From Chelativorans salis (lineage in GTDB: Bacteria; Pseudomonadota; Alphaproteobacteria; Rhizobiales; Rhizobiaceae): a stretch of DNA of 64,000 bases. How positions within the stretch are numbered: position 1 is the first letter of the stretch; each line of letters starts with the position of its first letter. Shown here piece by piece: positions 27,704-45,101 of this stretch. The position numbers and the translations under genes were made by a program. The DNA lies in the NCBI RefSeq assembly GCF_025336525.1, contig NZ_JAOCZP010000009.1, forward strand, positions 124,001 through 188,000. The letters are read 5' to 3'. A model generated the notes under the pieces. It had not been told where the DNA came from. It made no database searches and saw nothing but the letters and a program-made list of their open reading frames with translations.

Positions 27704-27827
27704 GGGCAAAATCACCGCGATCTGCCCCCCACTCAAACGTTATCGAAGATGATAGTGCAGCGCAACATTTCATCCTGCACCGCAGCAATCCAGTCCGCTA
27801 TTGCGGTGGCGGTACCCGACCGAGATA

Positions 27828-28613: not shown

Positions 28614-28740
28614 TCTTTCACGTTCTCCCGTCGATACGGCCACGCTCGCAGTTGCGGTTGCGCTCGTCTCGGTCCGGCCGCAGGGTGGCTGATATTTCGA
28701 TCACAATGAGGCAAGAGCGGCTTGTCGGGCCACTTGCCGA

Positions 28741-29154
28741 TCAATCATGTGCAGGCTGAGCAACATTTCCTGATGAGGTGGAACCAGTACCTCCTTCCCG
28801 CTTTTCCGGATCGACGCCCGAAAGCGCGTCATGAAATGCTCTCGCTTCCATCTCGGCGCCTTCCACGAATGCAATCTGCTTTTCGAGCGCGGCAACGCGC
28901 GCGTGGTAGCGCTGCATCGTCACTGTCAGATTGTCGGCTTTTGAAGCCAGCTCCTCACCGCCGCCGTTCTCGAACGCTTCGAGCGCGAAGGCAGCCGAGG
29001 TCTGCGCCTTTTCGTAGCGTGCCTCGAGCCCGCTACGCTCTGCATCGATCTCCGCGTGTAGTTGACGGAGGAATTGAAGCAGCCTGTCTATACGGCCACG
29101 GTCGGTGTCGCGGTCGCGCTGCGGATTTCGGGTCCGAAAGCTGAGTAACGCCAT
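28741..29154 (-). CDS. hypothetical coiled-coil protein
   Basis: 137 residues, not recognised. Charged and helical, with heptad-like patterns from about 20 to 110, no signal peptide or membrane helix, and a Gly/Ser-rich tail. GAGGAA lies before the ATG. It sits between the exoK and sulfotransferase genes on the same strand, so it may be co-transcribed with exo genes. A cytosolic scaffold or regulatory role is possible but not shown. Confidence 0.65.
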   Translation of the reverse strand: MALLSFRTRNPQRDRDTDRGRIDRLLQFLRQLHAEIDAERSGLEARYEKAQTSAAFALEAFENGGGEELASKADNLTVTMQRYHARVAALEKQIAFVEGAEMEARAFHDALSGVDPEKREGGTGSTSSGNVAQPAHD

Positions 29155-29193
29155 GGAGTTTCCTCACGGTGGGCCGGAGAGCGTGTTCGACCG

Positions 29194-30024: not shown

Positions 30025-30092
30025 GTGATGCACTCCGTTTCATATTGCCCTCCCCACCGCGCGGAACATCACGCGGCCCAAGTTGATCTCGT

Positions 30093-31109
30093 TCAATCCG
30101 GCATCGCCAAACGTCCCCGAAGCAGGTAGCGCGGCATTTTGGCCGGAACCGATTGCCGACGCCGGTCCTTACGCCTGCGCATAAGTCCTTCCGCCTTGTC
30201 GGCAAAAATCCCGCCGGCAATCCCCGGAAGAGACATCGGGTGTGCGCATGCATCCAGCATCGCGGCAGTCAGTCCCGACGCAGCCTTGACGTCGAGAAAC
30301 CGCCGCAGTTCATAACGAGCACGCACGTGGCGCGAATGGCGCTTGACGAGCTTGCTCGCGCAATCCGGCAGGGAAGGCGACTGGATAAGCGCCTGGTCTG
30401 CCTCCCACAGTCGCTTCAGATCGTCCGTGGAGTGCTGTCCGCTCAGTGAATCGGGCCGGACGACGGCACCGTAGCCGCAGGCGCGGACGACCTTATAACG
30501 AGCGCCTTTCACCAGCGCGCGCGCATAGAGGTCGTAATCCTCCCCGAGCCGCAACCGCTCATCATAGCGCAGACCATGACGATCGAGGAAAGCACGGCGC
30601 ATAACAGGTTTCAAAAACCCGATCTCACCACGACGCACACCGCGCCTGGCAATGTTGCCTTCTATGAACGCTCGCAAATCTAGGAAGTATGGCTCCGGCG
30701 CGAAACGCGGCACGTCCGGCTCACTGTCGTCGGCGTCGATGAACGTTATATTGTCCGCGACAAAGTCCCAGTCATCACCATCGAGAAGCGCTTCGAAGCG
30801 GCCCTTCAGGAAGAAATCGTCCGCGTCCAGGATGGCAATCAGAGGCGCCGTGGAGTTGGCTACAGCGTGATTGCGCGCGAAGGCGGGGCCGCAGTTCCGA
30901 GAAAGGCGCAGCACATGCAGACGGCCGCTTCCGTCATCAGACTGCTGCGCTGCGCCGGCGGTATCGTCGGTGGATGCATCGTCGACAACGATCACTTCGC
31001 CCACCTTCGTCTCGCGCAACGCAGAGGTGATGGCGCGGGCAATTGTATTGGAGGCGTTCCTGGCCGCGATGACCACGCACACCATCATCTCCGGAGCCGA
31101 TGAACCCAC
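30093..31109 (-). CDS. GT2 glycosyltransferase (ExoU/ExoW-like)
   Basis: 338 residues with GT-A motifs VCVVIAARNAS, VVDDASTDDT, AILDADDFF (metal site) and LGEDYDLYARAL. Close in pattern to the ExoO-like protein, and like ExoU or ExoW could add side-chain glucoses; next to exoX the S. meliloti gene is exoU. I leave the symbol blank because sequence reading cannot separate the paralogues. GTG 31109 has GAGG five bases upstream; ATG 31088 is the alternative and begins directly at MMVCVV. Confidence 0.78.
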   Translation of the reverse strand: MGSSAPEMMVCVVIAARNASNTIARAITSALRETKVGEVIVVDDASTDDTAGAAQQSDDGSGRLHVLRLSRNCGPAFARNHAVANSTAPLIAILDADDFFLKGRFEALLDGDDWDFVADNITFIDADDSEPDVPRFAPEPYFLDLRAFIEGNIARRGVRRGEIGFLKPVMRRAFLDRHGLRYDERLRLGEDYDLYARALVKGARYKVVRACGYGAVVRPDSLSGQHSTDDLKRLWEADQALIQSPSLPDCASKLVKRHSRHVRARYELRRFLDVKAASGLTAAMLDACAHPMSLPGIAGGIFADKAEGLMRRRKDRRRQSVPAKMPRYLLRGRLAMPD

Positions 31110-31299
31110 GTCAACCTCGTATAACGAACGTTGGACAGTGACCGCGCCACATAGGGCGCCACCACGCGCAAAGGATCGGTTCCTCCCAGAAAGTGGAGGT
31201 AGGGTGTACGCACAAAAGGGGGATTGCAATACGGCAGAGGTATGCTGCAGCAGCAGAATTGAATAGAGCGATACTCGCTGGGTGAGGGTCTCTATCTAT

Positions 31300-31596
31300 C
31301 TATAGTTGCGACGACCTCGTCACGCCGGAGACCTGATCCGGGCTTCCTACCGGCTTTCCGTGCTTCATGGAAGCCGCCGTTTTCTCGCCTTCGGGCACTT
31401 CACCGTCGCTCTCTCCGCCGCGAGACGGCCACAGGACCATTATCAAAATAGTTGCAAAATAGCCGGTCTGGATAATTACGGCGCATGCCAGTGTGGAGAG
31501 AAACGTCGTCCATGCAGATTGCGTCACGATATATGTCGTGATTGCAAACGCGGTAAGAGCGATGAGCATGCCGCGAAGGAAAAGTGGGAAAGACAT
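31300..31596 (-). CDS. exoX: ExoX, post-translational repressor of EPS production
   Basis: 98 residues, the same length as S. meliloti ExoX. Begins MSFPLFLRGM, has two membrane helices (about 7-27 and 33-58), and ends in a charged cytosolic tail. ExoX inhibits ExoY so that the ExoX:ExoY ratio sets EPS output. Divergent from exoY across 596 bases of AT-rich DNA, as in rhizobia. Confidence 0.88.
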   Translation of the reverse strand: MSFPLFLRGMLIALTAFAITTYIVTQSAWTTFLSTLACAVIIQTGYFATILIMVLWPSRGGESDGEVPEGEKTAASMKHGKPVGSPDQVSGVTRSSQL

Positions 31597-32192
31597 GTCT
31601 AAGCCCGGCTAAGCCTTGCGTGTTTGCGCCCGAGGCAGATCATCTCGCCATCCTCCCGCAGCAACGCTCATGTCTTCTTGCCGCCGTCAACGCCGCCAAT
31701 GAGTTCCACATTATCGACGCGGGCTCGAATACAAAGCGTCCGTTACTTTATATATGGAACCAAGAGGCGTGAGGCAATATGAGGCCGTGCTTTGCACGGG
31801 ATTCGCAACCCCTTTGTCAGATGGATTCCGTGCTCTGCCGCCTCCGCCGACGCAATGATGTCCTACTCGATTGAACATCTTGATCTAGTCTGAACAACCT
31901 ACTGGTGAGCACCGGCGAAGGATTCGCCATTCTCCTCATTATTACAGTATATTACATAAGCTCAATATGAAATTTCACAATAACTAAATGTACAGACCCG
32001 ATATATACACGAAATGCGCCAGTATCCGCCCTGCCTGTTCAAGTGCCCAAGAAATGTATCGATACGTTAGATAATATGATTCCGATTTTGTCATCCTGCC
32101 AAACTTTCATCGTGTGCTTTGCATAAACAGCAGGCTATCTTGCTGCATCGCAGCATTTGCCTCACACCCACCGCCACTGACTGGGGACGCAC
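31597..32192. promoter_or_regulatory. exoX-exoY divergent control region
   Basis: 596 bases without a supported gene. The stretch at about 31920-32110 is far more AT-rich than the rest of the window (for example TATTACATAAG and GATATATACACG segments). GTATCGATAC at 32056-32065 is a perfect 10-bp palindrome. In S. meliloti the equivalent region is bound by MucR, which favours AT-rich DNA. Its role here in exoY activation or repression is inferred from that. No terminator with a T-run was found. Confidence 0.6.
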
Positions 32193-32873
32193 ATGAAGCA
32201 TGCGACAGGGTCAGCCGATCTATCTGTTGGAATCCGATACAGCGCCGAAGCAAGACCCGTCCTGGGCGGCGGATTCAAACGCGGCTTCGATGTCGCCGCC
32301 GCCTTGATGGCCATCCTCTTCCTAAGCCCGCTACTCATTATGCTCGCCTTGCTGGTTAAGCTCTCCGACGGCGGGCGCGTGCTTTACGCCCATCCGCGCA
32401 TCGGCCGGAATGGCAACACCTTCAGATGCATGAAGTTTCGCACGATGGTCGAAAACGGCTCCGAGGTGCTCGCCGCCCATCTGAGCCGGAGCCCGGCTGC
32501 CCGCGCCGAATGGAATGCGACACGCAAGCTGCAGGACGACCCCCGCATCACCCAAGTTGGCGCGGTGTTGCGCAAATTGAGCCTCGATGAGCTTCCGCAG
32601 CTGTTCAATATCCTACGCGGAGAGATGAGCTTCGTCGGTCCCCGGCCGGTTGTGCTGGACGAGCTCCATATGTACGGCCCCGCGGCAGTCTATTATCTGC
32701 AGGCGCGCCCCGGGCTGACGGGGCTCTGGCAGATCAGTGGGCGCAACGATGTCTCTTATGGCCAGCGTGTGGATCTCGACCAGCACTATGTCGAAAACTG
32801 GTCGTTCGCTTTCGATCTGCTGATCATCATAAAAACCTTGCCTGCAGTTATTTCCTCGCGCGGGAGTTATTGA
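32193..32873 (+). CDS. exoY: ExoY, undecaprenyl-phosphate galactose phosphotransferase
   Basis: 226 residues, equal to S. meliloti ExoY. Transfers galactose-1-phosphate from UDP-galactose to the lipid carrier, the first step in the repeat unit. One membrane segment (about 30-58) precedes the catalytic domain with KFRTM, DDPRITQVG, RKLSLDELPQLFNILRG, SFVGPRP and ARPGLTGLWQISGRND. The ATG is supported by matching length. Followed four bases later by exoF. Confidence 0.94.
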   Translation: MKHATGSADLSVGIRYSAEARPVLGGGFKRGFDVAAALMAILFLSPLLIMLALLVKLSDGGRVLYAHPRIGRNGNTFRCMKFRTMVENGSEVLAAHLSRSPAARAEWNATRKLQDDPRITQVGAVLRKLSLDELPQLFNILRGEMSFVGPRPVVLDELHMYGPAAVYYLQARPGLTGLWQISGRNDVSYGQRVDLDQHYVENWSFAFDLLIIIKTLPAVISSRGSY

Positions 32874-32877
32874 CGCC

Positions 32878-34167
32878 ATGCTACATCGTATGGGTCCGTA
32901 TGCAGGAGAGGCTGCATCGAAGAGCTCCATCCCGCTCTTTCGTTCGCGGCTCGTCTCCGTGCTGGCCGCGATTATGACACTTCTGCTTCCGGTGGTTTCC
33001 GGAGCCGAGGAATATTTGCTCGGGCCCATGGACAAGCTGCACATCCGGGTCGCGGAATGGCAGAGTGCCGATGCTTCGGCACGCGATTGGTCGTCGGTGA
33101 GCGGTGACTATACCGTCGGTCCTTCCGGATCGATATCGATACCCTTCATCGGGGAACTCCCGGCAACCGGCAAGACCACCGCCGAGCTCGCCGCCACGAT
33201 CGGCGACGAACTGCAACAGACGCTCGGTCTGCTCACCCGACCCGACGCGTCGGTCGAGGTAGCGGAGTTCCGCCCCTTCTTCATTTCCGGCGATGTTCAG
33301 GCTCCTGGCAAATACGCCTATGATCCCGGCCTGACGGTGCTGAAGGCGATCAGCGTGGCAGGAGGCCTGCGCCGCGCGCAAAATGAGGGCATGCGGGTCG
33401 AGCGCGACTACATCAATGCGCACGGGAACCACGAGGTTTTGGCTGCGGAGCACAACAGGCTGATTGCGCGCCGCGCCCGGCTGATGGCCGAAGCCGAGGG
33501 CGCGACAGCAATCGAGCCTCCCGAAGAGCTTGCAGGAAGCGCCGAAGGCAAGCGATTGATCGCCAAGGAGACAGCCTTCATGAAGGCGCGCGAGGAGCAA
33601 ATGGAGCGTTCGCTCTCTGCGCTCGACGATCTGAAGAAGCTGCTCACGGGCGAGATCGAATCTCTGGAGAAAAAGATCGCAACGCAGAACCGCCAAATCC
33701 AGCTTTCGCGCGAGGAGCTCGAGGGGATCGGCGGCCTCGCTGAGCGCGGGCTTGTAGTCAATCAACGCATTCTAGGCGCTGAACGCTCGATTGCAGACTT
33801 GGAAGGCAAGGTTCTGGATATGGAAACCGCCAAACTGCGGGCCAGGCAGGATATCAGCCGAGCGGAGCGCGATGCGGCCACGCTCCGCGACGAACGCGAG
33901 GCGGAGATTGCCCGGCAGCTGCAGGAGACGGAGGCCGAGATCGAGGCGCTGGACCTGAAGATTGCGATGTATCGCGGACTGATGACCGAAGCGGCTTCGC
34001 TGGCTCCGGAGGCGGCTTTGAGCACGGCGACGGCCTCGGCCGAGGTCAGCTACCGGATCGTGCGCTCGGTCGACGAGGAAACACAGGAAATTGCCGCCGA
34101 CGAGAACACGGCAGTCCGCCCCGGCGATGTGATCAAGGTGGACGTCGTCCCGCCGTCGGTCCAGTAG
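32878..34167 (+). CDS. exoF: ExoF, outer-membrane/periplasmic polysaccharide export protein
   Basis: 429 residues. An unusually long N-terminal segment leads into a signal-type hydrophobic stretch (about 25-43, ending VSGAEE). A Poly_export domain (YLLGPMDKLHIRV) and a SLBB-like domain (FFISGDVQAPGKYAYDPG) follow, then a long coiled coil (about 195-375). No lipobox cysteine is seen, as in ExoF but unlike Wza. Works with ExoP and ExoQ in export. Lies between exoY and exoQ. Confidence 0.9.
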   Translation: MLHRMGPYAGEAASKSSIPLFRSRLVSVLAAIMTLLLPVVSGAEEYLLGPMDKLHIRVAEWQSADASARDWSSVSGDYTVGPSGSISIPFIGELPATGKTTAELAATIGDELQQTLGLLTRPDASVEVAEFRPFFISGDVQAPGKYAYDPGLTVLKAISVAGGLRRAQNEGMRVERDYINAHGNHEVLAAEHNRLIARRARLMAEAEGATAIEPPEELAGSAEGKRLIAKETAFMKAREEQMERSLSALDDLKKLLTGEIESLEKKIATQNRQIQLSREELEGIGGLAERGLVVNQRILGAERSIADLEGKVLDMETAKLRARQDISRAERDAATLRDEREAEIARQLQETEAEIEALDLKIAMYRGLMTEAASLAPEAALSTATASAEVSYRIVRSVDEETQEIAADENTAVRPGDVIKVDVVPPSVQ

Positions 34168-34199
34168 CTGCAGCCGCGGCTCTCCACGAAAACCGCGAA

Positions 34200-35438
34200 A
34201 TGAAGATTCCCGTTGCCCTCTTTGTCAACCCCGAGCGGAATTTCGCATACGGGTCCTTCGCGGTTGCCGTTTCGCTCTTTGTCTTTGCTTATTCGACGCG
34301 CTTTGGACAGGTGCCAATCCTCGTCTACTACGCCCTGTGGCTGCCCCTGCCTTTCATCGATCCGCAGCGCTATCTCAGGGGCAATGCGCATCTCCCCTGG
34401 ATCGTCGCCTTCGGCGTCTTCGCTCTCCTATCCGCCTTCTGGTCGGCAGCGCCAAGCGCGACCGCCCGGGCAGGTGTACAGTACCTGACCCACATCGCGT
34501 GCGCGCTGATCGCGGCGCGCAGCGTGAGCCCGCGCACGTTGACCCTCGGCGGGCTGGCCGGCGTTGCGCTGGTGCTCGCCTATTCGCTCGCCTTCGGCGG
34601 CTTTCATTACGACCCGATAGACGGCACCTACAGTTTCGTCGGTGCATTCTCATCGAAGAACCAGCTCGGCTTCTTCGCCTCACTCGGTATCTATCTGGCC
34701 TTCGCGGCTCTCCTCCTGCTGCGCGAGCGCGGTCTGACTGTGGTCATGGCGCTCTTCGTTGGCGCCTTGTCAGGCTATTGCCTGCTCGCCTCTCAATCCG
34801 CCACTTCCATCATCACCGTGACGATTGCGCTTGCCGCCAGCCTCGCCATGAACACGCTGCAGCTATTCGCACCCATACCGCGCAAGCTGCTCTTCATCGC
34901 CGGCACCGCCCTCGCACTTCTCGGCTTGTTTGCCGCCCTTCAGCTTGGTGCGTTCGATGCGGTTCTTAGCATCTTCGGCAAGGATGCAACCCTGACCGGC
35001 CGCACCTATCTCTGGTCGGAAGGTATGGCCGCCGCGCGCGAACACCCGCTGTTGGGTATCGGCTATCAGGCCTATTGGGTCCATGGCTTTCCGGACGCCG
35101 AACGGCTCTGGGAAGAATTCTACATCACCGCACGCACCGGCTTCCACTTCCATAACACCTATATCGAGACGCTCGTCGAAGTCGGCGCGATCGGCTTGGT
35201 CCTTCTCGTCATCCTGCTGATCGGCATTATCGCTGGCCACACCAGCAAATTGCTCGGTAACCGGCATGATCCCGCTGCGTGGCTTATGTTCGGCCTCAGC
35301 GTGATGCTGCTTCTCCGCTCGCTCTCAGAGGTCGACGTGATCACGCCCTATGTCGTCGGCTCCTTCCTTCTCTACTATGCGGCAGGCACAGCCTTCGACC
35401 TCTCCCGTCGCACAGCGCAAAGCCCCATCCCCAGTTGA
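34200..35438 (+). CDS. exoQ: ExoQ, Wzy-type EPS polymerase
   Basis: 412 residues with about 11-12 membrane helices. The long loop with EHPLLGIGYQAYW and FHFHNTYIETLVEVG is the Wzy_C/O-antigen-ligase signature. Joins the octasaccharide units in the periplasmic leaflet into high-molecular-weight EPS. 32 bases after exoF; ATG 34200. Last of the plus-strand exo genes; exoZ and exoB, which follow in S. meliloti, are not present. Confidence 0.9.
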   Translation: MKIPVALFVNPERNFAYGSFAVAVSLFVFAYSTRFGQVPILVYYALWLPLPFIDPQRYLRGNAHLPWIVAFGVFALLSAFWSAAPSATARAGVQYLTHIACALIAARSVSPRTLTLGGLAGVALVLAYSLAFGGFHYDPIDGTYSFVGAFSSKNQLGFFASLGIYLAFAALLLLRERGLTVVMALFVGALSGYCLLASQSATSIITVTIALAASLAMNTLQLFAPIPRKLLFIAGTALALLGLFAALQLGAFDAVLSIFGKDATLTGRTYLWSEGMAAAREHPLLGIGYQAYWVHGFPDAERLWEEFYITARTGFHFHNTYIETLVEVGAIGLVLLVILLIGIIAGHTSKLLGNRHDPAAWLMFGLSVMLLLRSLSEVDVITPYVVGSFLLYYAAGTAFDLSRRTAQSPIPS

Positions 35439-35543: not shown

Positions 35544-37148
35544 TCATTCCAGCGTCTGATCTGTCTCACCGGAACCTCTGTCCAGAAGCCATACCTTGTC
35601 GGCGGCGATCGTTTCACCACTCTGGCACGACACGATGACGATGGACTGTGCTGCTCTCGCGTAGGCTATGATTGTGTCGAGCAAGTCCTGATCGTTGCAG
35701 ACTTCATCATCGTCGATCAGCAGGACGGATGCTGAACGGATCATCGCTCGCGCAGCCCGGATACGGGACGCTTGCGCGGGGCTTGGTGCGTGAGAGGCTC
35801 TGGTATGCAGCTGAGGATTTTCCGAACCGCCATCAGCATCGACCCTGCACGATTTCGCAATGGAACCGATCTCTTCTTGAGATGTGCCCGAGGGTGCGCC
35901 GATCACGATATTCTCCATCGCGGTTCCGCGAACAAGCGGAATGGCCGGAGACAAAAGGCTGACCGCTCGCCGCCAGTCGCGGCGCGAGACCTGATGCAGA
36001 GGAACGCCGTCGAGAAAAACGGAAAGATCTGCATCCTCTTCCAGGCCGGCGACACTGGCGAGAAAGGCGCTGCGGCTTGTGCGAGTACCGCCGCAGAGCA
36101 AAACCAGTTCGCCTGGTGTGGCTTTCAGAACCACTAGCGACCCGCCATCCGGGCGGTGCTCGATACACAGCCGACGCCCTGCCGAGGTGCGCGGCAGAGG
36201 CATCGGCATCTCCGGGTCGGAAAGGACTGGCATCGCAAGGATAGAAGCGATCCGACGCCGGGACTCGACATAGGCAAGCCGATAATCGGCAGCGCGCGCA
36301 AGATCGGAGAGATACGCAACGATCAGGCTGGAAAGAAGGAGAAGCGCGCTCAGATCGGCCACAGGCATTGCCGGACCGGCAGCGACTGCATAGCCCACGA
36401 GAATTGCGATCATGGCCGGGGTGACGAGTTCGCTGGCTGCGCGGGCCACGCCCGACCAACTGGCCCGCCGGATGAGCCATGCATTCATCCTGTCCGATTC
36501 ACGGTCGACCTTGCGCATCACTGGCCCGCTTCTGCCGAAATGAGCAAAACTCGTCCGGCCAAGAACCACCTCCCCGAGATGACCCGCAAGCCGGCCACGC
36601 CACCGCCGACTCTCGCGAATGGCATGCTGTAGGAACGGCAGGGTGAGGATAGTGATGGCCAGCCACAGAAGAATGCCGGACAGCAGGTAGGGAGCGACGC
36701 TGGGGGCGAGCCAAAAGCCGCCCAGCGCTATCAGGATAATAGAAGGCCCCGCGACGAGAAACGAAGCGATCCCGTCAGCGAGCCAGGACCTGATGGCGGA
36801 AAGATCCGTGATGAGGCGGGTCATCACGAGGCCAAGCCGTGTCCGGCTCGCCGACGGCGGCAACGCGAGAAGGTGCCTCACCAATTGCCCTCGAACTTCG
36901 CGCACATACCCAAGCGCGAGCTTGGCTCCTTGTCGGCGCTGCATCACCCTCAAGACAAAGAGGGTGATGCCGAGAAAGAGGCTGGCAGCGGCGATCAGCC
37001 ATCCATGACCACCCGCCAGTCCACCCGAAGCCACCAGATCGACGACCCAAACCAGCGCAAGCGAGGCCGCTGCCTGGCTGAAGCCATTGGCGACGAGCCC
37101 CGCCATTGCGCCAAGGCGCCCACCGATCAGGAGACTTGGTGGGCGCAC
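35544..37148 (-). CDS. ABC-exporter-like protein with degenerate ATPase domain
   Basis: 534 residues. An N-terminal membrane domain of five to six helices (about 15-280) is followed by a nucleotide-binding-domain-like region. Architecture follows CydC/D- or exporter-type half transporters, including the TAMENIVIG segment after the Q-loop position. The catalytic motifs are altered: Walker A is GGTRTSRS at 353-360 (Lys to Arg), the signature is PSPAQ at 455-459 instead of LSGGQ, Walker B reads LLIDDD with the catalytic Glu changed to Asp, and Cys508 or Gln509 stands where the switch His belongs. The reading frame is intact. The GTG start at 37148 has GGGAGG upstream and overlaps the DUF1611-like gene by 22 bases. 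Possibly a pseudo-transporter or an export platform for the Gly-rich protein encoded divergently. Confidence 0.8.
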   Translation of the reverse strand: MRPPSLLIGGRLGAMAGLVANGFSQAAASLALVWVVDLVASGGLAGGHGWLIAAASLFLGITLFVLRVMQRRQGAKLALGYVREVRGQLVRHLLALPPSASRTRLGLVMTRLITDLSAIRSWLADGIASFLVAGPSIILIALGGFWLAPSVAPYLLSGILLWLAITILTLPFLQHAIRESRRWRGRLAGHLGEVVLGRTSFAHFGRSGPVMRKVDRESDRMNAWLIRRASWSGVARAASELVTPAMIAILVGYAVAAGPAMPVADLSALLLLSSLIVAYLSDLARAADYRLAYVESRRRIASILAMPVLSDPEMPMPLPRTSAGRRLCIEHRPDGGSLVVLKATPGELVLLCGGTRTSRSAFLASVAGLEEDADLSVFLDGVPLHQVSRRDWRRAVSLLSPAIPLVRGTAMENIVIGAPSGTSQEEIGSIAKSCRVDADGGSENPQLHTRASHAPSPAQASRIRAARAMIRSASVLLIDDDEVCNDQDLLDTIIAYARAAQSIVIVSCQSGETIAADKVWLLDRGSGETDQTLE

Positions 37149-38209
37149 ACCGCACCTCCCATAACTTTCACCGGCGATATCATCGGGCTTTCCGGAACCA
37201 TGCTCGCCGCAATGGTCGGATCCGAGAGCTCTTCGATCCCATAGACCGGCACATTGGCGATGCTTGCCTCTCGGCATGCCAGCGGCGAACGTGTCAATCG
37301 GCCGCTCATCCCGAGCACGTCGTAACCGAGGGAGCGCAAACGCTCGCATCCGGCAGCGGCTCCCATCGCGTCGCCGGCGGCAAAGAGTGCACCGCGGGCA
37401 AGCTTCCGGAATTCCAGCGACTTGGCGAGCGCTGCCGTTTCGGGCTGGAATAGCCCGTCTGCAACCTCCAGAACCGCGACATCAGCACCGGAACCAGCAA
37501 GGGACCGCAACAAACGCTCCGCGCCCCGGATGATGGCATCAACCGGTGTCAGATAGGTCGTGACGAAACCTGCATCGGTGAAATCGAGCGCCGCACAGGC
37601 ACCGGCGTCCGACATTGCCCAAAGATCGTTTCCAGCACCAGTGCCGGTCACCTTCGCCGCGCCGACAGAAAAACCAGCCCTCGCAAGCCCACGCACGAGG
37701 CTTGCGGCTGTTGTCGTCTTGCCGGCATTCATTGACGTTCCGAAGACCATGATAGCCGGCGGCAGGCGCAATGTGGGTTCGGGCGCTATGGCAAAGTCAG
37801 CGATGTTGACGACTTGGCCATCGACATCAGCGACCAAACCGATTGGTACGATTCCAGTCGGCAGCGCAATCCTATCGTGCCAGCCGGCGGCGCGAGACGC
37901 CACGCCTCCTGCGGCAACCATATCGCAGGGACCGAGATCGGACGGCACAAGGGCCTCAAACTGGTCGGGTGCATAGCGGTTGCCGTAGGCGAGAAGTACC
38001 TCGTCCCCGGGGGCAAGTGCCGCCTTGCGTCCCGAGGGCAGTTCGATCGCCTTGTGATGGCCGAGCGTGTCGATTCTGGCGAGGACCAAATCTCCCGACC
38101 TCGGCTCAGCAGGAGGAGGAACCAGAATCTGCATGTGCTTGGTGGGCACACGACGCGTGGTAAACGCCCGCTTGGCTTTGGTGATGCGTTTGCAATCAAG
38201 AAATTCCAT
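37127..38209 (-). CDS. DUF1611-like P-loop protein
   Basis: 360 residues. An N-terminal beta-rich domain (about 35-140) is followed by a P-loop domain with GTSMNAGKTT at 157-166, AAKVTGTGAGNDLWAMSDAG and later VLEVADGLFQPET, resembling the DUF1611/MobB-like NTPases. No membrane segment. Function unknown; the family contains proteins linked to amino-acid or peptide modification. ATG 38209 follows GGGAGA. First gene of a two-gene minus operon with the ABC-like gene, divergent from the Gly-rich peptide and kinase genes. Confidence 0.7.
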   Translation of the reverse strand: MEFLDCKRITKAKRAFTTRRVPTKHMQILVPPPAEPRSGDLVLARIDTLGHHKAIELPSGRKAALAPGDEVLLAYGNRYAPDQFEALVPSDLGPCDMVAAGGVASRAAGWHDRIALPTGIVPIGLVADVDGQVVNIADFAIAPEPTLRLPPAIMVFGTSMNAGKTTTAASLVRGLARAGFSVGAAKVTGTGAGNDLWAMSDAGACAALDFTDAGFVTTYLTPVDAIIRGAERLLRSLAGSGADVAVLEVADGLFQPETAALAKSLEFRKLARGALFAAGDAMGAAAGCERLRSLGYDVLGMSGRLTRSPLACREASIANVPVYGIEELSDPTIAASMVPESPMISPVKVMGGAVCAHQVS

Positions 38210-38462
38210 GGTGGTCTCCCGTGGATGCGCGTTGCGCCGGTACCCAGGGAGAACGTGCGCTGCGCAGCATTATTCCCGCGCAATCAAAACCCAATGTCTT
38301 TCGGCTCTTTCCAGCTTCATTGGCAGTACGGCGACAGCCCAATTCGAACGAGGGGAATAAGCGGCCTTCCCGCCCGTTCTCCTCGCGAGGCCGGCAAATG
38401 CGGACCTGCCAGACAGCATTGTCTTTCGCCGGACTCTCAACTGAAGAACGATGGAGGTTTCC
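38210..38462. promoter_or_regulatory. divergent promoter between DUF1611-like and Gly-rich peptide genes
   Basis: 253 bases without a gene. Contains a perfect 10-bp palindrome GCTGCGCAGC and a GGAGG ribosome-binding site at 38453-38457 for the peptide. No clear sigma-70 promoter can be named. It separates the two arms of the proposed peptide system and is the place to look for ECF-type control by the nearby sigma factor. Confidence 0.4.
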
Positions 38463-38840
38463 ATGAAAGACGACAACACAACACCTACCCTTGCGAACAA
38501 CGACGGGGCAATCGGACGCCGTCGCGCCCTAAGGCAGATCGGCCTCCTGGCCGCAGCCGCATATTCCGCTCCCGTATTGCTGCAGGTCAGCCAAGCACGA
38601 GCTTCGGGAGGCTCAGGAGGCGGATCCGGCGGTGGTTCGGGCGGCGGATCCGGCGGAGGCAGGGGATCTGGCGGAGGTAGCCGAGGCGGCTCCAGTGGCC
38701 GTGGCGGGCGCGGGTCAGGCGGATCCGGTGGATCCGGTGGATCAGGCGAACGCGGACGCCGTCGGGCGCACTCCGCCGACCCCGTCGGGCGCGGGCTACG
38801 AAAAATCGGGCATAGCATTGGCCGGATGTTCCGCCTCTGA
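38463..38840 (+). CDS. Tat-signal Gly/Ser-rich small protein, candidate precursor
   Basis: 125 residues. Residues 18-46 form a twin-arginine-type signal (GRRRALRQIG, then a hydrophobic stretch ending SQARA). Residues 48-95 contain only Gly (31), Ser (13) and Arg (4), mostly as GGGS units. The tail 96-125 is basic and ends in the likely amphipathic helix LRKIGHSIGRMFRL. ATG 38463 is fixed by GGAGG five bases before; ATG 38451 overlaps that site. It precedes the HPrK/PqqD gene by 64 bases. Not recognised as a known family. It could be a structural glycine-rich protein, or the substrate of the neighbouring kinase. Confidence 0.7.
   Translation: MKDDNTTPTLANNDGAIGRRRALRQIGLLAAAAYSAPVLLQVSQARASGGSGGGSGGGSGGGSGGGRGSGGGSRGGSSGRGGRGSGGSGGSGGSGERGRRRAHSADPVGRGLRKIGHSIGRMFRL
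38721..38747 (+). repeat. tandem 9-base repeats within the Gly-rich gene
   Basis: GGATCCGGT twice (38721-38729, 38730-38738) and GGATCAGGC (38739-38747). Encodes repeated Gly-Ser-Gly. Similar 12-base GGCGGATCC-type units lie at about 38615-38665. The length may vary between strains by slippage in multiples of three. Confidence 0.7.
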
Positions 38841-38904
38841 ACCCTTCGCGCATGAGCTGGAGGCAGCGAACTGCCTGCTGCCTCCAGTTCTTAGGAGAAC
38901 CGAA

Positions 38905-40113
38905 ATGCTTGCACGCTGTGCCCTGATCGAAAGACCGCTCCTTTTCGACGCCACTGAAGAGGTGTTTGAGGTGCTCCTCTCGATCACGGACGGATGGCAG
39001 TTTGAAAGCATACTGGAACCCGCCGAAGCGTTGATCCGTGTAGTGCGCGGCGGAAGCGGCTTTAGGATCGAGGAGGAAGACCACCAGCCTTTTTGCGAGG
39101 ATAGCGCCGTCAGCGCAGCGTGCTGCCTGGTCGCAATTCTCCTCAACCGTCTGGTCGAAAACGATGCGGACTGCCTGTGCCTCCATGCCGGCGCGGTTTC
39201 CATGGGTGGGCAGACACTCGTCTTTCCAAATACGCACCGCGCGGGCAAAAGCACGCTTGCCACGGCGCTGGCGTTCCAGGGCGCAAAGCTTGTTTCGGAC
39301 GACATCCTCCCGCTCGACTGCACAGGCGCGAAGATACGCGCCATTGCCTCCGGCGTCGCACCGCGGCTGAGACTGCCGCTCGCTCCTTCTCTGGGCCTGC
39401 GCTTTGGCTTTTCGGCCTGGCGCTTGGCTGGCGCGGATGACGGCTACTACCGCTACATCCGACTGCCTTCTTCGAGCCGCGCCCCGCTCGGCGCACGCCG
39501 CGAGCTGGGCGCCTTTATCTTTCTCGAACGCGGCGCCGAACATGCCAAGCGCCAGCTCTTTTCCGTAAGCAAGGCAAGCGCGATGCGCATGCTGCTCCTG
39601 CAGAATTTCGGTACCGCCGCACCCCCAGGGACAATTCTGGACCGCATCGACCGGCTGACCGACGATAACCCCGCCTTTCTGCTGCGCTATCGCGATCTCG
39701 CGGATGCCGTTTCGCTGCTCCGCCGCCATTTTCCAGGAACCGTGGCAAGCCGCACGCTGTGGTCGGGACTGAAACATGCCGAGCCAGCGCTCAGCGAAAC
39801 GGAGCGCCTCGAAGCCAGACAACCCGATCCCTTCCGCTTGGCCAACTGCGCCATCCGGCACAGCGAAGGCATAATTCTGCGGGAGGCTGAAGGCTTGATC
39901 TTTCTTGTCGATGGGGAGAACGGTGGGATTTTCGCCCTGGATCAGGTGGGCGCGGCAATCTGGAAGTTTCTGGAGGAAGCCGCCTCGCTGCGCGAAATCA
40001 CAGATGCGGTCAGCGCAGCCTATCCCGATATCGAACCTGGGCAGATTGCTACCGATGTGGAAAATCTGATCCGGGCACTATGGGCAAAGCAGTTGGTGCA
40101 GTTGGCAAACTGA
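38905..40113 (+). CDS. fused HPr-kinase-like / PqqD-domain protein
   Basis: 402 residues. The N-terminal two-thirds match HprK-related kinases: CLHAGAVSMGGQTLVF, then a P-loop RAGKST at 112-117, LVSDDILPL and PGTILDRIDRL. The first P-loop Gly is replaced (Asn-Thr-His-Arg-Ala-Gly-Lys), an oddity. The C-terminal 313-402 is a PqqD-like domain (IFALDQVGAAIWKFLEE and DVENLIRALWAKQLV), the fold that binds leader peptides in RiPP pathways. ATG 38905 has AGGAGA six bases upstream. The fusion suggests a kinase with built-in substrate-recognition domain. The preceding gene is the obvious substrate candidate; this is inference. Confidence 0.8.
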   Translation: MLARCALIERPLLFDATEEVFEVLLSITDGWQFESILEPAEALIRVVRGGSGFRIEEEDHQPFCEDSAVSAACCLVAILLNRLVENDADCLCLHAGAVSMGGQTLVFPNTHRAGKSTLATALAFQGAKLVSDDILPLDCTGAKIRAIASGVAPRLRLPLAPSLGLRFGFSAWRLAGADDGYYRYIRLPSSSRAPLGARRELGAFIFLERGAEHAKRQLFSVSKASAMRMLLLQNFGTAAPPGTILDRIDRLTDDNPAFLLRYRDLADAVSLLRRHFPGTVASRTLWSGLKHAEPALSETERLEARQPDPFRLANCAIRHSEGIILREAEGLIFLVDGENGGIFALDQVGAAIWKFLEEAASLREITDAVSAAYPDIEPGQIATDVENLIRALWAKQLVQLAN

Positions 40114-40132
40114 AAGCGCTGCCTTGCCGATC

Positions 40133-40924
40133 TCAGCGCAGATCAGCGAGCGCTTGCGCCTCTTCCTCTTCCGACAGAGCAGGCCCGGCATTGATCGCCG
40201 ACAGATAGGCTTCGAGGGCTTCCATCGAGGACGCAGGCGCGTATCCATCCTCGCCAAGTGGTGCCGTAACAGCAATTTTTGTTATCCACTCGCTGGCTTC
40301 GTGGCAGGAGACGGCCACCAGCGATGAACCTTGGGCCGGATCGATTTCATATTCGCGGCAGAAGGTGCCATCCTGATCCCTGAAGGAAGAAACAATGCGG
40401 ATCCGCCGCTCTTCTCCGGCAAGCTGGCGTTCCTCGCCGGAAGCCAGTGTTTGCAAGGCTTTCTGAACGGCCGGGTCGGTCACGCCCGCCACGCGGGCCT
40501 CTTCGGGATCACCCGCACTGCCGAGCTGATAGCCGACAATCCCGGCTGCGATCGCAGCGACCAGTGAGGCTGCGAGCGGCAGTGTCCAAGTCTCGGCGCG
40601 CCGGGCGGAGTGGTTTTTCCGCACGCTGCCAAGCTGCACCACCTGGCCGGGCTCAGCTTCGGCATCGTTTGCTGAAGCCTTACGGGACTCTTCGACCATC
40701 GCCCGCACGTCCTGTTCCAGCTTGTGCGGAACCGGCTGGTCGAGCAAAGACGCCATCTCTGCCTTCGCGCGTGCCCGGGTCTCCATGAACATGGCAACCC
40801 GCGCCATCAACTCATCGTCGTGATTGACAGCATCCTCGACGGCCGCGGCAGTGGCCTCGTCGAGTTCGCCATCGGCGAAGGCCATCAATGTCTCGTCGTC
40901 GAACGCGGGTTTCGTCATCACCAT
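40133..40924 (-). CDS. anti-sigma factor, membrane-anchored
   Basis: 263 residues. The N-terminal part has an anti-sigma zinc-finger-like pattern DDETLMAFADGELDEATAAAVE but without the His-x3-Cys-x2-Cys cluster. One membrane helix at about 118-137 (LAASLVAAIAAGIVGYQLG), then a periplasmic domain with two cysteines. It begins with ATG at 40924 overlapping the sigma stop (TAATG), which is typical of sigma/anti-sigma operons. Probably holds the ECF sigma at the membrane until an envelope signal arrives. Confidence 0.85.
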   Translation of the reverse strand: MVMTKPAFDDETLMAFADGELDEATAAAVEDAVNHDDELMARVAMFMETRARAKAEMASLLDQPVPHKLEQDVRAMVEESRKASANDAEAEPGQVVQLGSVRKNHSARRAETWTLPLAASLVAAIAAGIVGYQLGSAGDPEEARVAGVTDPAVQKALQTLASGEERQLAGEERRIRIVSSFRDQDGTFCREYEIDPAQGSSLVAVSCHEASEWITKIAVTAPLGEDGYAPASSMEALEAYLSAINAGPALSEEEEAQALADLR

Positions 40925-41457
40925 TAATCCCTTTGCTCGGGAGAACGGTCAGAGCTGGCATTTATTCCTGTGAGTTCCGCCAATCTTTTCCGTCCGCGCG
41001 CAAGCCGGCTCATAACCGTTCCGATCGGGACGCCGAGCACTCCGGCGGTTTCGCGATAGGACAGATCCTCCACGCAGACCAGCATGATCACCTCCCGCTG
41101 CTCGTCCGGCAAACGTTCGATGGCCCCGCTTACCGTAGCGAGCGTCAGCCGCGCTTCGGTCGTGCTATCGCCATCCTCACCGACGATGTCGACGCGCTCT
41201 TCAATGTCGTCGGTCGGGCCAGCAGTCTTCTCGCGCCGCAGGCGGTCGATCCACAGATTGCGTATAATGCGGAATATCCAAGCATCAAATCGCGTGCCAG
41301 CCTGAAAGCTTGCCGCGTTCGCGAGTGCCCGCTCGCAAGCCTGCTGGACTAGGTCGTCGGCCAGGTCGGGAATGCGCGTAAGCGATAGTGCAAACCGCCG
41401 CATGTTCGGCAGCAGGGCGATCAGCTGAACGCCGATGTCTTGCTCGCCTGCCGTCAT
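40924..41457 (-). CDS. ECF-family RNA polymerase sigma factor
   Basis: 177 residues. Region 2 (RFALSLTRIPDLADDLVQQA, FDAWIFRIIRNLWIDRLRR) and region 4 (IERLPDEQREVIMLV, LSYRETAGVLGVPIGTVMSRL) are clear; no region 3. Translationally coupled to the anti-sigma gene and divergent from the S8 protease gene. Likely targets are its own promoter, the protease, and perhaps the neighbouring Gly-rich/HPrK unit. This target list is inferred. Confidence 0.93.
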   Translation of the reverse strand: MTAGEQDIGVQLIALLPNMRRFALSLTRIPDLADDLVQQACERALANAASFQAGTRFDAWIFRIIRNLWIDRLRREKTAGPTDDIEERVDIVGEDGDSTTEARLTLATVSGAIERLPDEQREVIMLVCVEDLSYRETAGVLGVPIGTVMSRLARGRKRLAELTGINASSDRSPEQRD

Positions 41458-41595
41458 CGGCCTCCCAATCCAGTCGATGCTGAAAAATAATAGCCGACCG
41501 AGGAATAGAATAGCTCTTCGCCCGTTTCCAGTGCAGGTTTGTAGAACTCCATCGAAGATGGAAGAAAAGCCGTGGCGGCAACGGTGGAAGAGACG
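41458..41595. promoter_or_regulatory. sigma factor / S8 protease divergent region
   Basis: 138 bases, AT-richer than the genes. On the minus strand a GGAAAC at about 41527-41532 resembles an ECF -35 element, but I cannot confirm a -10. A small inverted repeat CCATC-GAA-GATGG lies at about 41550-41562. Confidence 0.35.
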
Positions 41596-43113
41596 ATGAG
41601 CGGACTATTCTTTGAGCGGTCACGGAAAGCGTTGACTTTCCTGCTGTTTCTCTCGGTGTTGGGCTCTTTCGCGCTGCCTGATCCGGGACCTTTTCAACTC
41701 ATCACGCCGGCACTCGCTGACGACGATGATGATGGCGACGACGATGGTGACGATGATGATGACAGTGGCGGTGGGAGCCGAGGATATGGCGGCAGTAGCT
41801 CATCACCTGTCTTTCGCGCGCCGAGCCCGCCACGCATTTTTCGCGAGTTGGTGCGTCCCTTTCGCAACCGCCCGGCCGCCCGTCCCCGCCGCACAGCGCC
41901 CCCGCCCCCGCAACCACGCTATGCGGAACGCCAGATCGTCGCGATGGGTCTTTCGGACGAGAACCTGGCCCAGCTGGAGGCCGATGGCTATGTAGTTCTG
42001 GAGCAAAGTGCCCTTCCTTCAATCGGCCAATCCATTGTGAAGCTTGAGGTACCTGCGGGTACGGATCTGGAAGCGGCGCGAGAAGAGGTGCGCGTGCTCG
42101 ACCCGACCGGCCAAGCCGATTTCAATCATTACTACCGCCCCGGACAAGCTGACGAGCAAGCACGCACCTGTCCCGATGGGCTCTGCTGGGCGCCTCTCCT
42201 GGTGAACTGGCCTGTCCGCAACGTCAAAGCGCGCAACGCCTGCGAAACGCCTGTACGCATCGGCATGATCGACACCGGAATTAATCCGGACCATGAAACC
42301 TTTGCCGAAAGCGCGATCGAGGTCATGCGTATTGGCGACGAGCAGGAACCTGCTTCCGGGCGCCAGCATGGCACCGCGGTCGCCGCGCTCCTTGTCGGCT
42401 CCCGGTCAAGCCGAACGCCCGGGCTTTTGTCCAACGCCGAACTGTTCGCCGTGGACGCATTCAAACAGGCAAGCAGCGGAAGCGACCGCGCCGAGGTCTT
42501 CGATCTCGTCATGGGGATCGACCATCTGCTTGCGAAAGATGTGTCCGTCGTCAACATGAGCCTTGCGGGCGATGCGAATGACCTGCTGCGCCATTCCATT
42601 GAATCGGCCATTGCAGAGAACAAGGTCGTCTTCGTCGCGGCCGTGGGCAATGATGGCCCGCGCGCTGAGCCCGTCTATCCCGCTGCCTATCCGGAAGTGA
42701 TCGCGGTAACGGCCGTCGATCGCCACAAACGTCCCTACCGGCGCGCCATCCAAGGCAAACACGTCGACATCGCTTCCCCCGGTGTCGATGTCTGGACCGC
42801 GGCCTCCATCCGCGGCGCGCGGCCCAAGACGGGAACCTCTTTTGCTGCCCCCTTCGTTTCTGCCGCGGCCGCTATAGTGAAGACCAAAACCCCCACCCTT
42901 ACGCACCAAGAGGTGGAGCAGCGACTTGCCGCCTCAGCCGAAGACCTGGGCGAGCGGGGTAAGGATCCCGTGTTCGGCTGGGGGCTTTTGAATACTTTTG
43001 AGATTTGCGGCTTTGAAAGCGAGAGCAGGCCGATCGACCGCAGTAGAATCAGATCATCCGCTCAGCCTTACAATGCGGACAGCGTGCGATCCAAAATGCC
43101 AATAAACCGTTGA
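41596..43113 (+). CDS. secreted subtilisin-like (S8) serine protease
   Basis: 505 residues. A signal peptide (about 1-35, ending PALADDD) is followed by an Asp/Gly run and a Gly/Ser stretch, then a Pro/Arg-rich linker to about residue 115, a propeptide-like domain, and the catalytic domain. Triad Asp226 (GMIDTGIN), His258 (RQHGTAVA) and Ser415 (GTSFAAP), with oxyanion Asn352 (AVGNDG). The protein has no C-terminal anchor. ATG 41596 is preferred over GTG 41572 because the signal starts there. Divergent from the ECF sigma pair, so it may be a sigma-dependent envelope protease; the Gly-rich secreted protein is a possible target. Confidence 0.88.
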   Translation: MSGLFFERSRKALTFLLFLSVLGSFALPDPGPFQLITPALADDDDDGDDDGDDDDDSGGGSRGYGGSSSSPVFRAPSPPRIFRELVRPFRNRPAARPRRTAPPPPQPRYAERQIVAMGLSDENLAQLEADGYVVLEQSALPSIGQSIVKLEVPAGTDLEAAREEVRVLDPTGQADFNHYYRPGQADEQARTCPDGLCWAPLLVNWPVRNVKARNACETPVRIGMIDTGINPDHETFAESAIEVMRIGDEQEPASGRQHGTAVAALLVGSRSSRTPGLLSNAELFAVDAFKQASSGSDRAEVFDLVMGIDHLLAKDVSVVNMSLAGDANDLLRHSIESAIAENKVVFVAAVGNDGPRAEPVYPAAYPEVIAVTAVDRHKRPYRRAIQGKHVDIASPGVDVWTAASIRGARPKTGTSFAAPFVSAAAAIVKTKTPTLTHQEVEQRLAASAEDLGERGKDPVFGWGLLNTFEICGFESESRPIDRSRIRSSAQPYNADSVRSKMPINR

Positions 43114-43190: not shown

Positions 43191-45101
43191 ATGGCCTTTG
43201 AGATAGAGGACGCGCTGGAAGGCAGAATTCTCAAGGATCAGCTTGCTGACCTGAGGCATGGCCTCTTCGTGTCCATGCCGATAAGCACCGTGTTGTCGGG
43301 GCTGATTTTGGCTGTTCAGGCGCTTTCCGGTAGCGGCTTTGCAGCCGCGATCTGGTTCCTGGTGGTCAATGCGATAAACGGTGCCCGCCTCGCCCTCGCC
43401 CTTCGGCCAGCACCCTGGGCAGGAAAGCACGAGGACGATCTGGAGGGTGTTTCACGGCGGCTTCGTCTCTATGGCATTCTCGCTCTTCTATCCGGCTTTG
43501 CCTGGTCCCTTCTTGCCGTCCTCACAGCTGGATATACGGTTCCTCAAGCACCACTTCATCTGATCATCCTTGCCGGAATCTCCGCTGGTGCGGTCACATA
43601 TGGCACTTCGTATGCCGCAGCACCGATCAACTTCATCACACCGCCGCTCTTGATCACGGCGGGGTGCCTCGTGGCGAAGGGGGGCTTTGAAGACTACATC
43701 CTGGCTTTTGCGGTCCTGCTTTTCCTCGGCGGATTGGCTAGAAGCTCGTTTGTCGGGCAAGCCCGCTTCCGCGAGGTAAGCCGCCTCAAACACGAGGCGG
43801 AGCAGATCGCCGCGGAAATGAAGCGGAAGTCCAGGGAGGATCCCCTGACGGGCCTTCTCAACAGGCGGGGGCTGGAAAACATTGTCGACCAGCTCGGGAA
43901 TGCCGGCGGTCCCTTTGCAACGATGCTGATCGATCTGGATGGGTTCAAATCCGTCAACGATACATATGGCCACAAGATTGGTGACGACCTGCTCGTTCAG
44001 ATCGCCCGCAGGATAGAGGAGGAAGCACAGGAGGGTGCAATACTCGCCCGCATCGGCGGCGACGAGTTCGTGCTGCTTCTTCCCTCAACTGAGCGTTCGC
44101 ATTCTCCGAGTGAGCTTGCATCCCGGATCATAGCTAGGATTGCCAGTCCCTATTCTGGGGTTGCGTCCGTCCAGATCGGCGCATCCATCGGAATCTATCT
44201 ATCAGAACGACCCAGGCTGACGGAGATGCTGTTGCGGGCGGATATCGCCCTTTACACGGCCAAACGTCGCGGCAGGAACGAATTCTGCCTGTTCGATAGC
44301 GAACTCGATGCAGAACTACAGCGGCGCCAGTGCATCGAACGGGATCTCCGTTCGGCGATCGAGGCAAAAAGCATTGGCACATGGTTCCAGCCCATCGTTC
44401 AGCTCGATACCGGTGCCGTGGTCGGTTTCGAGGCATTGCTGAGATGGTCCCACCCGCTTCACGGTGCGATTTCTCCACCCGAGATCGTGACGGCCGCGCG
44501 CGAAACCGGAATGCTTCAGCTGCTTACGGAAACGGTGTTCCTTGGTTGTTGCGCCCTGATCGACGGTCTCGCGAAGGCTGGCCGCCAGGAAATTCGTGTC
44601 GCAATGAATGTGTCGCCGCGTGAACTGGAGGCCGGCAATATCGACGATCTGATATTGAATGGCCTGGACTCGAAGGGACTTCCTGCGACGATGTTCGAAA
44701 TCGAGATCACCGAAGAGGCCCCGGTGGACCGGGACAGGGTGGACGAAAAACTCGGTCGTCTTTCACATGCCGGCATTTCGATCGCGCTCGACGACTTCGG
44801 CACCGGTTTTTCCACGCTGGCATCGCTCAAGGACGGTCGTATAGGCAAGGTCAAAATCGATAAGGGATTCATCCGCGGCCTGGCCAAATCCCCGGAAGAC
44901 CAACTGCTTGTCAAAGCGGTTGTCGATCTCGGCCGGACCCTCGGCATAGAAGTCATGGCGGAGGGGGTCGAAACAGAAGAGGATCGGCAATCGCTGCAGG
45001 CGCTTGGCTGTAGAATGGCTCAGGGCTTCCTGTTCTCAAAGGCGATGCCTCCAAGGTGGGCACTCGAGTTGACGATGACAGAGCACGCGAAGCAGTTGTG
45101 A
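43191..45101 (+). CDS. membrane-bound GGDEF/EAL c-di-GMP protein
   Basis: 636 residues. N-terminal membrane module of about five helices (residues 25-190), a short coiled coil, GGDEF domain with intact GGDEF at 289-293, and EAL domain with EAL at 414-416 (EALLRW), EITEE, DDFGTG and AEGVET. No inhibitory RxxD is seen just upstream of GGDEF. Both active sites look intact, so it could make or degrade c-di-GMP. It follows the S8 protease by 77 bases. A link to EPS control through c-di-GMP is plausible only by location. Confidence 0.92.
   Translation: MAFEIEDALEGRILKDQLADLRHGLFVSMPISTVLSGLILAVQALSGSGFAAAIWFLVVNAINGARLALALRPAPWAGKHEDDLEGVSRRLRLYGILALLSGFAWSLLAVLTAGYTVPQAPLHLIILAGISAGAVTYGTSYAAAPINFITPPLLITAGCLVAKGGFEDYILAFAVLLFLGGLARSSFVGQARFREVSRLKHEAEQIAAEMKRKSREDPLTGLLNRRGLENIVDQLGNAGGPFATMLIDLDGFKSVNDTYGHKIGDDLLVQIARRIEEEAQEGAILARIGGDEFVLLLPSTERSHSPSELASRIIARIASPYSGVASVQIGASIGIYLSERPRLTEMLLRADIALYTAKRRGRNEFCLFDSELDAELQRRQCIERDLRSAIEAKSIGTWFQPIVQLDTGAVVGFEALLRWSHPLHGAISPPEIVTAARETGMLQLLTETVFLGCCALIDGLAKAGRQEIRVAMNVSPRELEAGNIDDLILNGLDSKGLPATMFEIEITEEAPVDRDRVDEKLGRLSHAGISIALDDFGTGFSTLASLKDGRIGKVKIDKGFIRGLAKSPEDQLLVKAVVDLGRTLGIEVMAEGVETEEDRQSLQALGCRMAQGFLFSKAMPPRWALELTMTEHAKQL

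Follow-up and report, generated by a model that had tools for sequence, protein, structure and literature searches.

The locus described here occupies positions 35544..43113 of a 64,000-nucleotide stretch of the Chelativorans salis genome (contig NZ_JAOCZP010000009.1, the whole stretch being called the window below), and consists of two divergent gene pairs followed by a sigma/anti-sigma pair of the extracytoplasmic function (ECF) type and a protease gene. From the intergenic region 38210-38462, the plus strand reads into a 125-residue protein with a twin-arginine translocation (Tat) leader and an HPrK-like kinase fused to a PqqD domain of the type known as RRE, i.e. the recognition element of ribosomally synthesized and post-translationally modified peptides (RiPPs), and the minus strand into a DUF1611-like protein and a protein resembling ATP-binding cassette (ABC) exporters. 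Beyond the kinase gene lie the anti-sigma and ECF sigma factor genes on the minus strand, and then the S8 protease gene on the plus strand. An earlier note had listed this inventory from the letters alone; all of its open reading frames (ORFs) proved real, at or near the coordinates given there, and the inventory was confirmed. The features are as follows.

38463..38840, plus strand: Gly/Ser/Arg protein with Tat leader, 125 aa (leader 1-47, core 78 aa); an ORF with a 65% identical relative in genome G047
38562..38579, plus strand: YSAPVL, residues 34-39 of that protein, within the Tat hydrophobic region; fits YxxPxL by leader alignment and by the motif in excerpts of PMC10368454 and PMC12710340
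38905..40113, plus strand: HPrK-like kinase fused to a C-terminal PqqD/RRE domain, 402 aa (Pfam, NCBIfam and profile searches)
39238..39255, plus strand: Walker-A-like RAGKST of the kinase, residues 112-117; AGKS invariant in 6/6 aligned rows
39901..40098, plus strand: PqqD/RRE domain, residues 333-398 (PF05402, E 2.7e-13; lasso RRE TbiB1, 2.6e-8)
37127..38209, minus strand: DUF1611-like P-loop protein, 360 aa (PF07755, 18.1 bits, below cut-off)
35544..37148, minus strand: pseudo-ABC exporter-like protein, about 534 aa from GTG 37148 (Pfam ABC_membrane; Walker A and signature lost)
40133..40924, minus strand: anti-sigma factor (NCBIfam), with one transmembrane stretch and an FCREYE-containing C-terminal part, both seen by eye
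40924..41457, minus strand: ECF sigma factor (Pfam sigma domains), in an ECF26/RpoE6-like context (excerpts of PMC6180224)
41572 or 41596..43113, plus strand: secreted S8 protease (PF00082, E 1.4e-34), with an Asp- and Gly/Ser-rich linker and visible Asp/His/Ser motifs
38252..38276, minus strand: ECF26-type promoter of the DUF1611-like/pseudo-ABC operon (motif search, as for the next three)
38354..38378, plus strand: ECF26-type promoter of the peptide-kinase operon
40944..40968, minus strand: ECF26-type promoter inside the sigma gene, ahead of the anti-sigma gene; layout as suggested for Sinorhizobium meliloti ecfR6 (excerpts of PMC6180224)
41502..41526, plus strand: ECF26-type promoter of the S8 protease gene

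These genes share a promoter motif. GGAATA-N15-CGTT was found at four sites in the window, against 0.12 expected, a number that none of 100 shuffles reached, and one site lies ahead of each of the four transcripts, namely peptide-kinase, DUF1611-like/ABC, anti-sigma and S8. The whole 5.66-Mb genome holds seven sites, including the four at the locus; the three others were dismissed as being at chance level, as judged by a reversed-pattern control that gave five. By employing a paired-word search on 24 sigma-side upstream regions of related loci, we found GGAAT-N16-CGTT at the top, in 14 of the 24, compared with a maximum of five in five shuffled sets. This short form occurs at 71 sites in 36 loci (L063/L127 and L062/L137, within the loci counts, are overlapping records of the same stretches), and the sites are located before genes for anti-sigma factors (18), S8 proteases (17), DUF1611-like proteins (15), sigma factors (7) and peptides (3), with none of these following in 11 cases.

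According to excerpts of PMC6180224, the ECF26 consensus consists of GGAATA (-35) and GT (-10), and the gene for the S. meliloti ECF26 factor RpoE6, a factor whose role is described there as undefined, is divergent from that of a serine protease, which is described as a widely conserved layout among ECF26 factors; the same excerpts raise the possibility that ecfR6 is transcribed from a separate promoter within rpoE6. The window likewise has promoters with a GGAATA -35 element at sigma-linked genes, and a serine protease gene that is divergent from, and adjoins, the sigma/anti-sigma pair. Judged by promoter match and context, the locus looks like one small ECF26-type regulon, and the shared sites before its transcripts support the ECF control proposed in the earlier note. 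Since the promoter fits the published consensus and RpoE6 also drives a divergent serine protease, the sigma/anti-sigma/protease core is already known.

The 125-residue protein consists of a twin arginine, a hydrophobic stretch, an ARA/S site and a (GGGS)n/Arg repeat, and its 78-residue core contains 36 Gly, 15 Ser and 12 Arg. With these arginines, the hydrophobic region and the AxA site, and with TatC encoded in the genome, it has the make-up of a Tat substrate, while an NCBIfam scan gave nothing convincing for it. Among 26 kinase loci scanned, 16 contained short same-strand ORFs with the leader RRxALxRLGLxxxxAYxAPxLL, altogether 18 proteins, all with YxxP, which were chosen by eye from a filter that required neither Y nor P and that missed at least one case (L105, where a leader profile later gave a match). 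The tails of these proteins differ, e.g. GSR, SRPSRP, KSRSRS and GGG. Ten further leader proteins had no Pfam match at E 0.1, and none of them passed an NCBIfam cut-off (the best was TIGR02811, with 27.7 bits and a cut-off of 48.45). In a looser check, 84 Tat-like ORFs were sorted, all from loci that had been selected for their kinases, leaders or DUF genes; 42 of the 44 with YxxP were judged to belong to the leader family (the exceptions being in L011 and L040), several of the 40 without YxxP were not real genes, and YxxP was absent from the Tat signals of ordinary type listed in this check, those of solute-binding proteins among them. Excerpts of PMC10368454 describe YxxPxL as the conserved leader motif of lasso precursors, and YxxP is given among lasso recognition sequences in excerpts of PMC12710340. 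An S8 protease that itself bears the leader is encoded in three loci (Shinella L021, Paracoccus L022 and L068 of genome G039), and in Shinella and Paracoccus the S8, peptide and kinase genes are consecutive, in that order.

RRE domains mark RiPP pathways. The C-terminal domain of the kinase falls near the lasso PqqD chaperones in NCBIfam, below cut-off, and among solved structures this half is closest to TbiB1 (2.6e-8), a lasso PqqD chaperone (1.7e-7) and TfuB1 (1.5e-5), with the PqqD of the pyrroloquinoline quinone type at 0.13. The locus thus has both elements of an RRE-dependent RiPP system, i.e. an RRE domain and an adjacent precursor with a recognition motif. The kinase part matches TIGR04352 (HprK_rel_A) at 55.2 bits (E 5.5e-15), short of the 200-bit cut-off, and reaches HPr kinase/phosphatase at 3.6e-3. 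His94, AGKS and Asp133 are invariant in six aligned kinase rows, and His94, GKS114-116 and DD132-133 are spaced as given for BsfK in excerpts of PMC10368454, in which BsfK is reported to phosphorylate Ser3 of its precursor, a reaction that the RRE BsfB1 speeds up. By analogy with BsfK/BsfB1, serine phosphorylation by the HPrK-like kinase, as suggested in the earlier note, is the likely chemistry here. Of two relatives scanned whose PqqD is a separate protein, the one in G128 also matches TIGR04352 (46.6 bits), and the one in G310 has no match at 1e-10.

Evidence for a link between leader and kinase comes from an even sample of 385 genomes of Alphaproteobacteria, the class of the window. The kinase/RRE profile matched 159 of these at E<=0.001, most matches being weak and including PqqD-only proteins and other kinases, and 36 at E<=1e-17, among which G412 was counted despite a PqqD-only match. 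The leader profile matched 35 genomes, and 33 of these had a strong kinase/RRE match. When restricted to the 19 genomes that had given no row to the leader profile, the count was 17 (Fisher 2e-24), with one of the 19, G481, having a leader near-identical to one used in the profile. This co-occurrence supports RRE-guided phosphorylation of a Tat-exported protein, and, together with the embedded YxxPxL and the lasso-type RRE, it singles out the 125-residue protein as the probable PqqD partner, as had been proposed. Distances between leader and kinase, tabulated by hand for the 35 genomes, were below 1.5 kb in 19, 25-43 kb in seven and about 119 kb in one; in six the two were on different contigs, and two had no strong kinase. 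The peptide, kinase, sigma, anti-sigma and S8 genes were found together in G047 (L055), Shinella and Paracoccus. Both divergent pairs together were seen in the window only; elsewhere the peptide-kinase and DUF1611-like/ABC pairs are found separately, either one being accompanied in certain genomes by the sigma/anti-sigma/S8 core, and the expectation that all four divergent genes would co-occur was not borne out. As neighbor clustering mixed genes with antisense ORFs, only families of clear homology were used.

In the mechanism that we propose, relief of the anti-sigma factor would allow the sigma factor to activate the four transcripts from their GGAATA-N15-CGTT promoters, as the sites and their conservation suggest, with that of the anti-sigma gene providing feedback. 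The 125-residue protein would be a precursor whose Tat leader also bears YxxPxL; the lasso-type RRE of the kinase may grip this leader at YSAPVL, for which the motif and the co-occurrence argue, and so keep the precursor in the cytoplasm, where the HPrK-like domain would phosphorylate serines of the (GGGS)n/Arg core before export. The modified chain would then be released, leave by the Tat route and be trimmed at ARA/S. In this view the RRE would resemble a Tat proofreading chaperone, one that is tied to the enzyme modifying the cargo. Outside the cell, the S8 protease would act on the 125-residue protein or on another ECF26-controlled surface protein, and the DUF1611-like NTPase and the pseudo-ABC protein would constitute an accessory module of their own, controlled by this sigma factor as well. 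S8 processing of the 125-residue protein is possible; a divergent serine protease is common in ECF26, also in S. meliloti (excerpts of PMC6180224). On the sequence evidence, we favor with moderate confidence an ECF26 regulon in which an RRE-guided kinase phosphorylates a Tat-exported precursor. The pairing of RRE-kinase and Tat precursor seems to be a form of RRE-guided peptide phosphorylation that has so far gone unrecognised, and it is present in several families of the Alphaproteobacteria.

A number of points weigh against this interpretation. The threshold for a strong kinase match was set after the results had been seen, two of the 35 leader genomes (G214 and G475) lack a strong kinase, three of the 36 strong-kinase genomes lack the leader, and the kinase is absent from all 15 genus relatives. 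Among 26 aligned leaders R, R, L, G, Y and P are invariant, but the collecting pattern demanded [YA]xxP, which by itself accounts for the invariance of P and for part of that of Y. In the real set of the paired-word search, 12 of 24 regions contained a GC-rich pair that has nothing to do with promoters. Of the seven loci with a peptide gene, only three (the window, L055 and L057) have the exact promoter ahead of it: L022, L067 and L102 have no exact site there, and in L021 the order is promoter-S8-peptide-kinase, with the peptide gene following S8 behind the promoter. Upstream of the DUF gene, it was found in just 10 of the 21 loci holding sigma and S8, in neither of the two with sigma only and in four of the 57 without sigma. 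Excerpts of PMC6180224 further report that 27 of 40 RpoE6 targets are shared with the general-stress factor RpoE2, an overlap which implies that another sigma factor might read these sites. As for the kinase, two of the three P-loop glycines of BsfK that are kept in lasso kinases are replaced (Asn109 and Arg112), and a single-sequence fold had a confidence (pLDDT) of 36 and was discarded. Lastly, in excerpts of PMC10368454, replacement by Ala of single residues (Y or L), of YP or of all of YPL in BsfA left phosphorylation in place, so YxxPxL need not be what the kinase depends on; this result made us slightly less confident in the phosphorylated Tat precursor and in the class of matrix proteins discussed below, and slightly more inclined towards a kit of unmodified surface proteins.

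In such a kit, the kinase would sense metabolites or target another protein, and the Gly/Ser/Arg protein would be left unmodified, as is supposed for small secreted-looking (NSSS)n proteins, whose genes follow this GGAATA-N15-CGTT promoter in eight of the 12 ECF26-S8 loci read on plasmids. These eight (L259, L261-L265, L269 and L270) are on plasmids of Sinorhizobium, Agrobacterium, Rhizobium and Shinella, two of them S. meliloti. For six, the annotated stretches in the PLSDB tables, which have gaps, show no PqqD or HPrK-like gene; the remaining two carry no annotation. The (NSSS)n proteins, however, have no RR...YxxP leader, and the joint presence of leader and kinase/RRE in 33 of 35 genomes argues against an unmodified kit, which we regard as unlikely. 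A cationic-peptide precursor, with (GGGS)n as a linker and S8 freeing the membrane-active C-terminal helix VGRGLRKIGHSIGRMFRL, is a still less probable alternative. This tail (window 38784-38837) is strongly amphipathic and cationic, its hydrophobic moment was reached by 0.02% of 5000 shuffles (0.16% for the similar tail of the G047 relative), and the S8 gene being under the same promoter favors the idea; yet the tail, by eye, is not kept in other leader proteins, and the proteins scanned included no recognisable immunity protein.

Two further explanations would give the peptide a different machinery. The export step of the earlier note would fall to the DUF1611-like/ABC pair, which does share the promoter and stands divergent from the peptide gene. 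Against this, the ABC protein has no Walker A in any of 15 ECF/S8-type rows aligned (window included, two rows from one contig, rows sorted into classes by hand), for which it was rejected as peptide exporter; the kinase occurs in none of 80 DUF loci fetched, though sigma and S8 are present in 21; and the leader that the peptide itself carries is of the Tat type. Export by the pair is accordingly quite improbable. That the locus is a lasso-peptide cluster or a remnant of one is scarcely credible, even though it has the lasso-type RRE, the YxxPxL leader and an HPrK-like kinase. The B2 protease family PF13471 had no match in the genome (a control search matched 2 of 14 genomes), which led us to reject cluster membership; in addition, no cyclase was found among the 16 proteins scanned (7 of the locus and 9 upstream neighbors), and a 78-residue core of low complexity speaks against a lasso peptide.

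The remaining genes of the regulon can be described more briefly. Against DUF1611 (PF07755), with a gathering cut-off of 25, the DUF1611-like protein scored 18.1 bits, and a Foldseek search with its model returned signal recognition particle GTPases, CTP synthases and dethiobiotin synthetases in the first rows, a second look at these fold matches covering residues 147-342. Its closest relatives (71-73%) are found in Mesorhizobium, in loci that, as fetched, are without the kinase. The ABC-like ORF spans 35544-37349 on the minus strand, with a likely true start at GTG 37148 (534 aa) or ATG 37106 (520 aa); it does not have the intact Walker A and signature of a functional ABC exporter, and the loss of Walker A in all 15 rows makes an ordinary exporter function unlikely. 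Together with the DUF1611-like gene it makes up a second, separate module under the same promoter. Pairs of a DUF1611-like gene and an intact ABC gene also occur with response regulators in cyanobacteria and Aromatoleum, and in HlyD-type loci in Paracoccus (L152, L153, L176, L183 and similar); these represent a cross-phylum module. In Paracoccus albus, a secreted-looking DDDDD-repeat protein (L019:5477-5929) is encoded near DUF, ABC and S8 genes.

The S. meliloti (NSSS)n protein may be SMa0146, one of two hypothetical RpoE6 targets; one record annotates an antisense ORF in place of the (NSSS)n gene (L259:4817-5206). Other promoter-linked genes in the rhizobial ECF26 loci L261-L264 and L266 (the last without annotation and judged by sequence) encode DUF6065, glycerate kinase and an SLC13 permease, although a given locus need not have all three. 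In Aminobacter (L260:8301-10613), genes for DUF4956, a protein with a polyphosphate-polymerase domain and a phytase-like protein come after the S8 gene, and the promoter motif is at 8166.

On the other side of the locus, an exopolysaccharide cluster (window 18355-35438) encodes a pyruvyl transferase, a Wzz/kinase, a sugar transferase, an export protein, an O-antigen ligase and a GH16 glycanase, in an order that we take to recall the rhizobial exo cluster. Within it, 19488-20336 encodes a calcineurin-like phosphatase with 36-41% relatives in exopolysaccharide stretches of G128, G186, G310 and G398. In seven genomes 25-43 kb separate kinase and leader; the stretch between was read in five (all except G400 and G477), and in these same four genomes exo matches lie between the two, that of G310 also containing an undecaprenyl-phosphate glucose phosphotransferase; the stretch of G317 has no relatives of the window exo proteins. 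Adjacency to exo genes was rejected as a trait of the fused-kinase class, as no match to the window exo proteins turned up in the other three loci with all five genes (L055, L021 and L022). The flanking of exopolysaccharide clusters by kinase and leader in four of five stretches may point to phosphorylated matrix proteins. We raise tentatively, and with more doubt than for the regulon itself, a class of secreted low-complexity Ser/Gly/Arg/Lys-rich proteins whose Tat signal doubles as an RRE leader, the RRE-kinase phosphorylating the cargo and licensing its export by Tat; such a class would extend across several alphaproteobacterial families. On the 3' side of the S8 gene, an ORF at 43191-45101 reads, by sequence and without a family search, as a GGDEF/EAL protein.

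If the phosphorylated Tat precursor is real, substrates could be assigned to a group of HPrK-like kinases, the short Tat-leader proteins with low-complexity tails beside such kinases would be explained, and a testable form of quality control, i.e. a modifying enzyme that reads the Tat signal itself, would be at hand. Biochemists would be offered a likely enzyme-substrate pair that is easily expressed, and the ECF26 regulon would gain modules. In the open-licence PMC literature, outside of which most subscription journals lie, no link between RRE and Tat signals was found, and the open-licence literature likewise gave nothing on HPr-rel-A.

Compared with known systems, the unit resembles the ECF26 unit of S. 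meliloti (RpoE6, EcfR6 and SMa0142, as given in excerpts of the published description) in the divergent S8 protease, the GGAATA -35 element, the anti-sigma promoter located within the sigma gene and the Ser-rich secreted-looking protein nearby, and differs from it in containing two further gene pairs, one for the RRE-kinase and the Tat-leader protein and one for the DUF1611-like and pseudo-ABC proteins. The DUF1611-like protein, for its part, departs from DUF1611 and dethiobiotin-synthetase-like proteins in scoring below the Pfam cut-off, in having its own N-terminal region with RYAPDQ and in its ABC-like partner. The kinase region is similar to the HprK-related kinase A family TIGR04352, though far below the cut-off of that family. 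Tat proofreading chaperones, e.g. DmsD and TorD, offer a parallel in that a cytoplasmic protein would hold a Tat signal until maturation; the predicted binding protein of the window, however, belongs to a different family and is fused to the modifying enzyme. With the lasso precursor kinases that work with an RRE (BsfK/BsfB1 and the paeninodin kinase, known to us from excerpts), the locus has in common an HPrK-like kinase, a lasso-type RRE, a YxxPxL leader and a likely Ser target, while its RRE is fused to the kinase, its leader is a Tat signal, its core is long and of low complexity, and B2 is missing.

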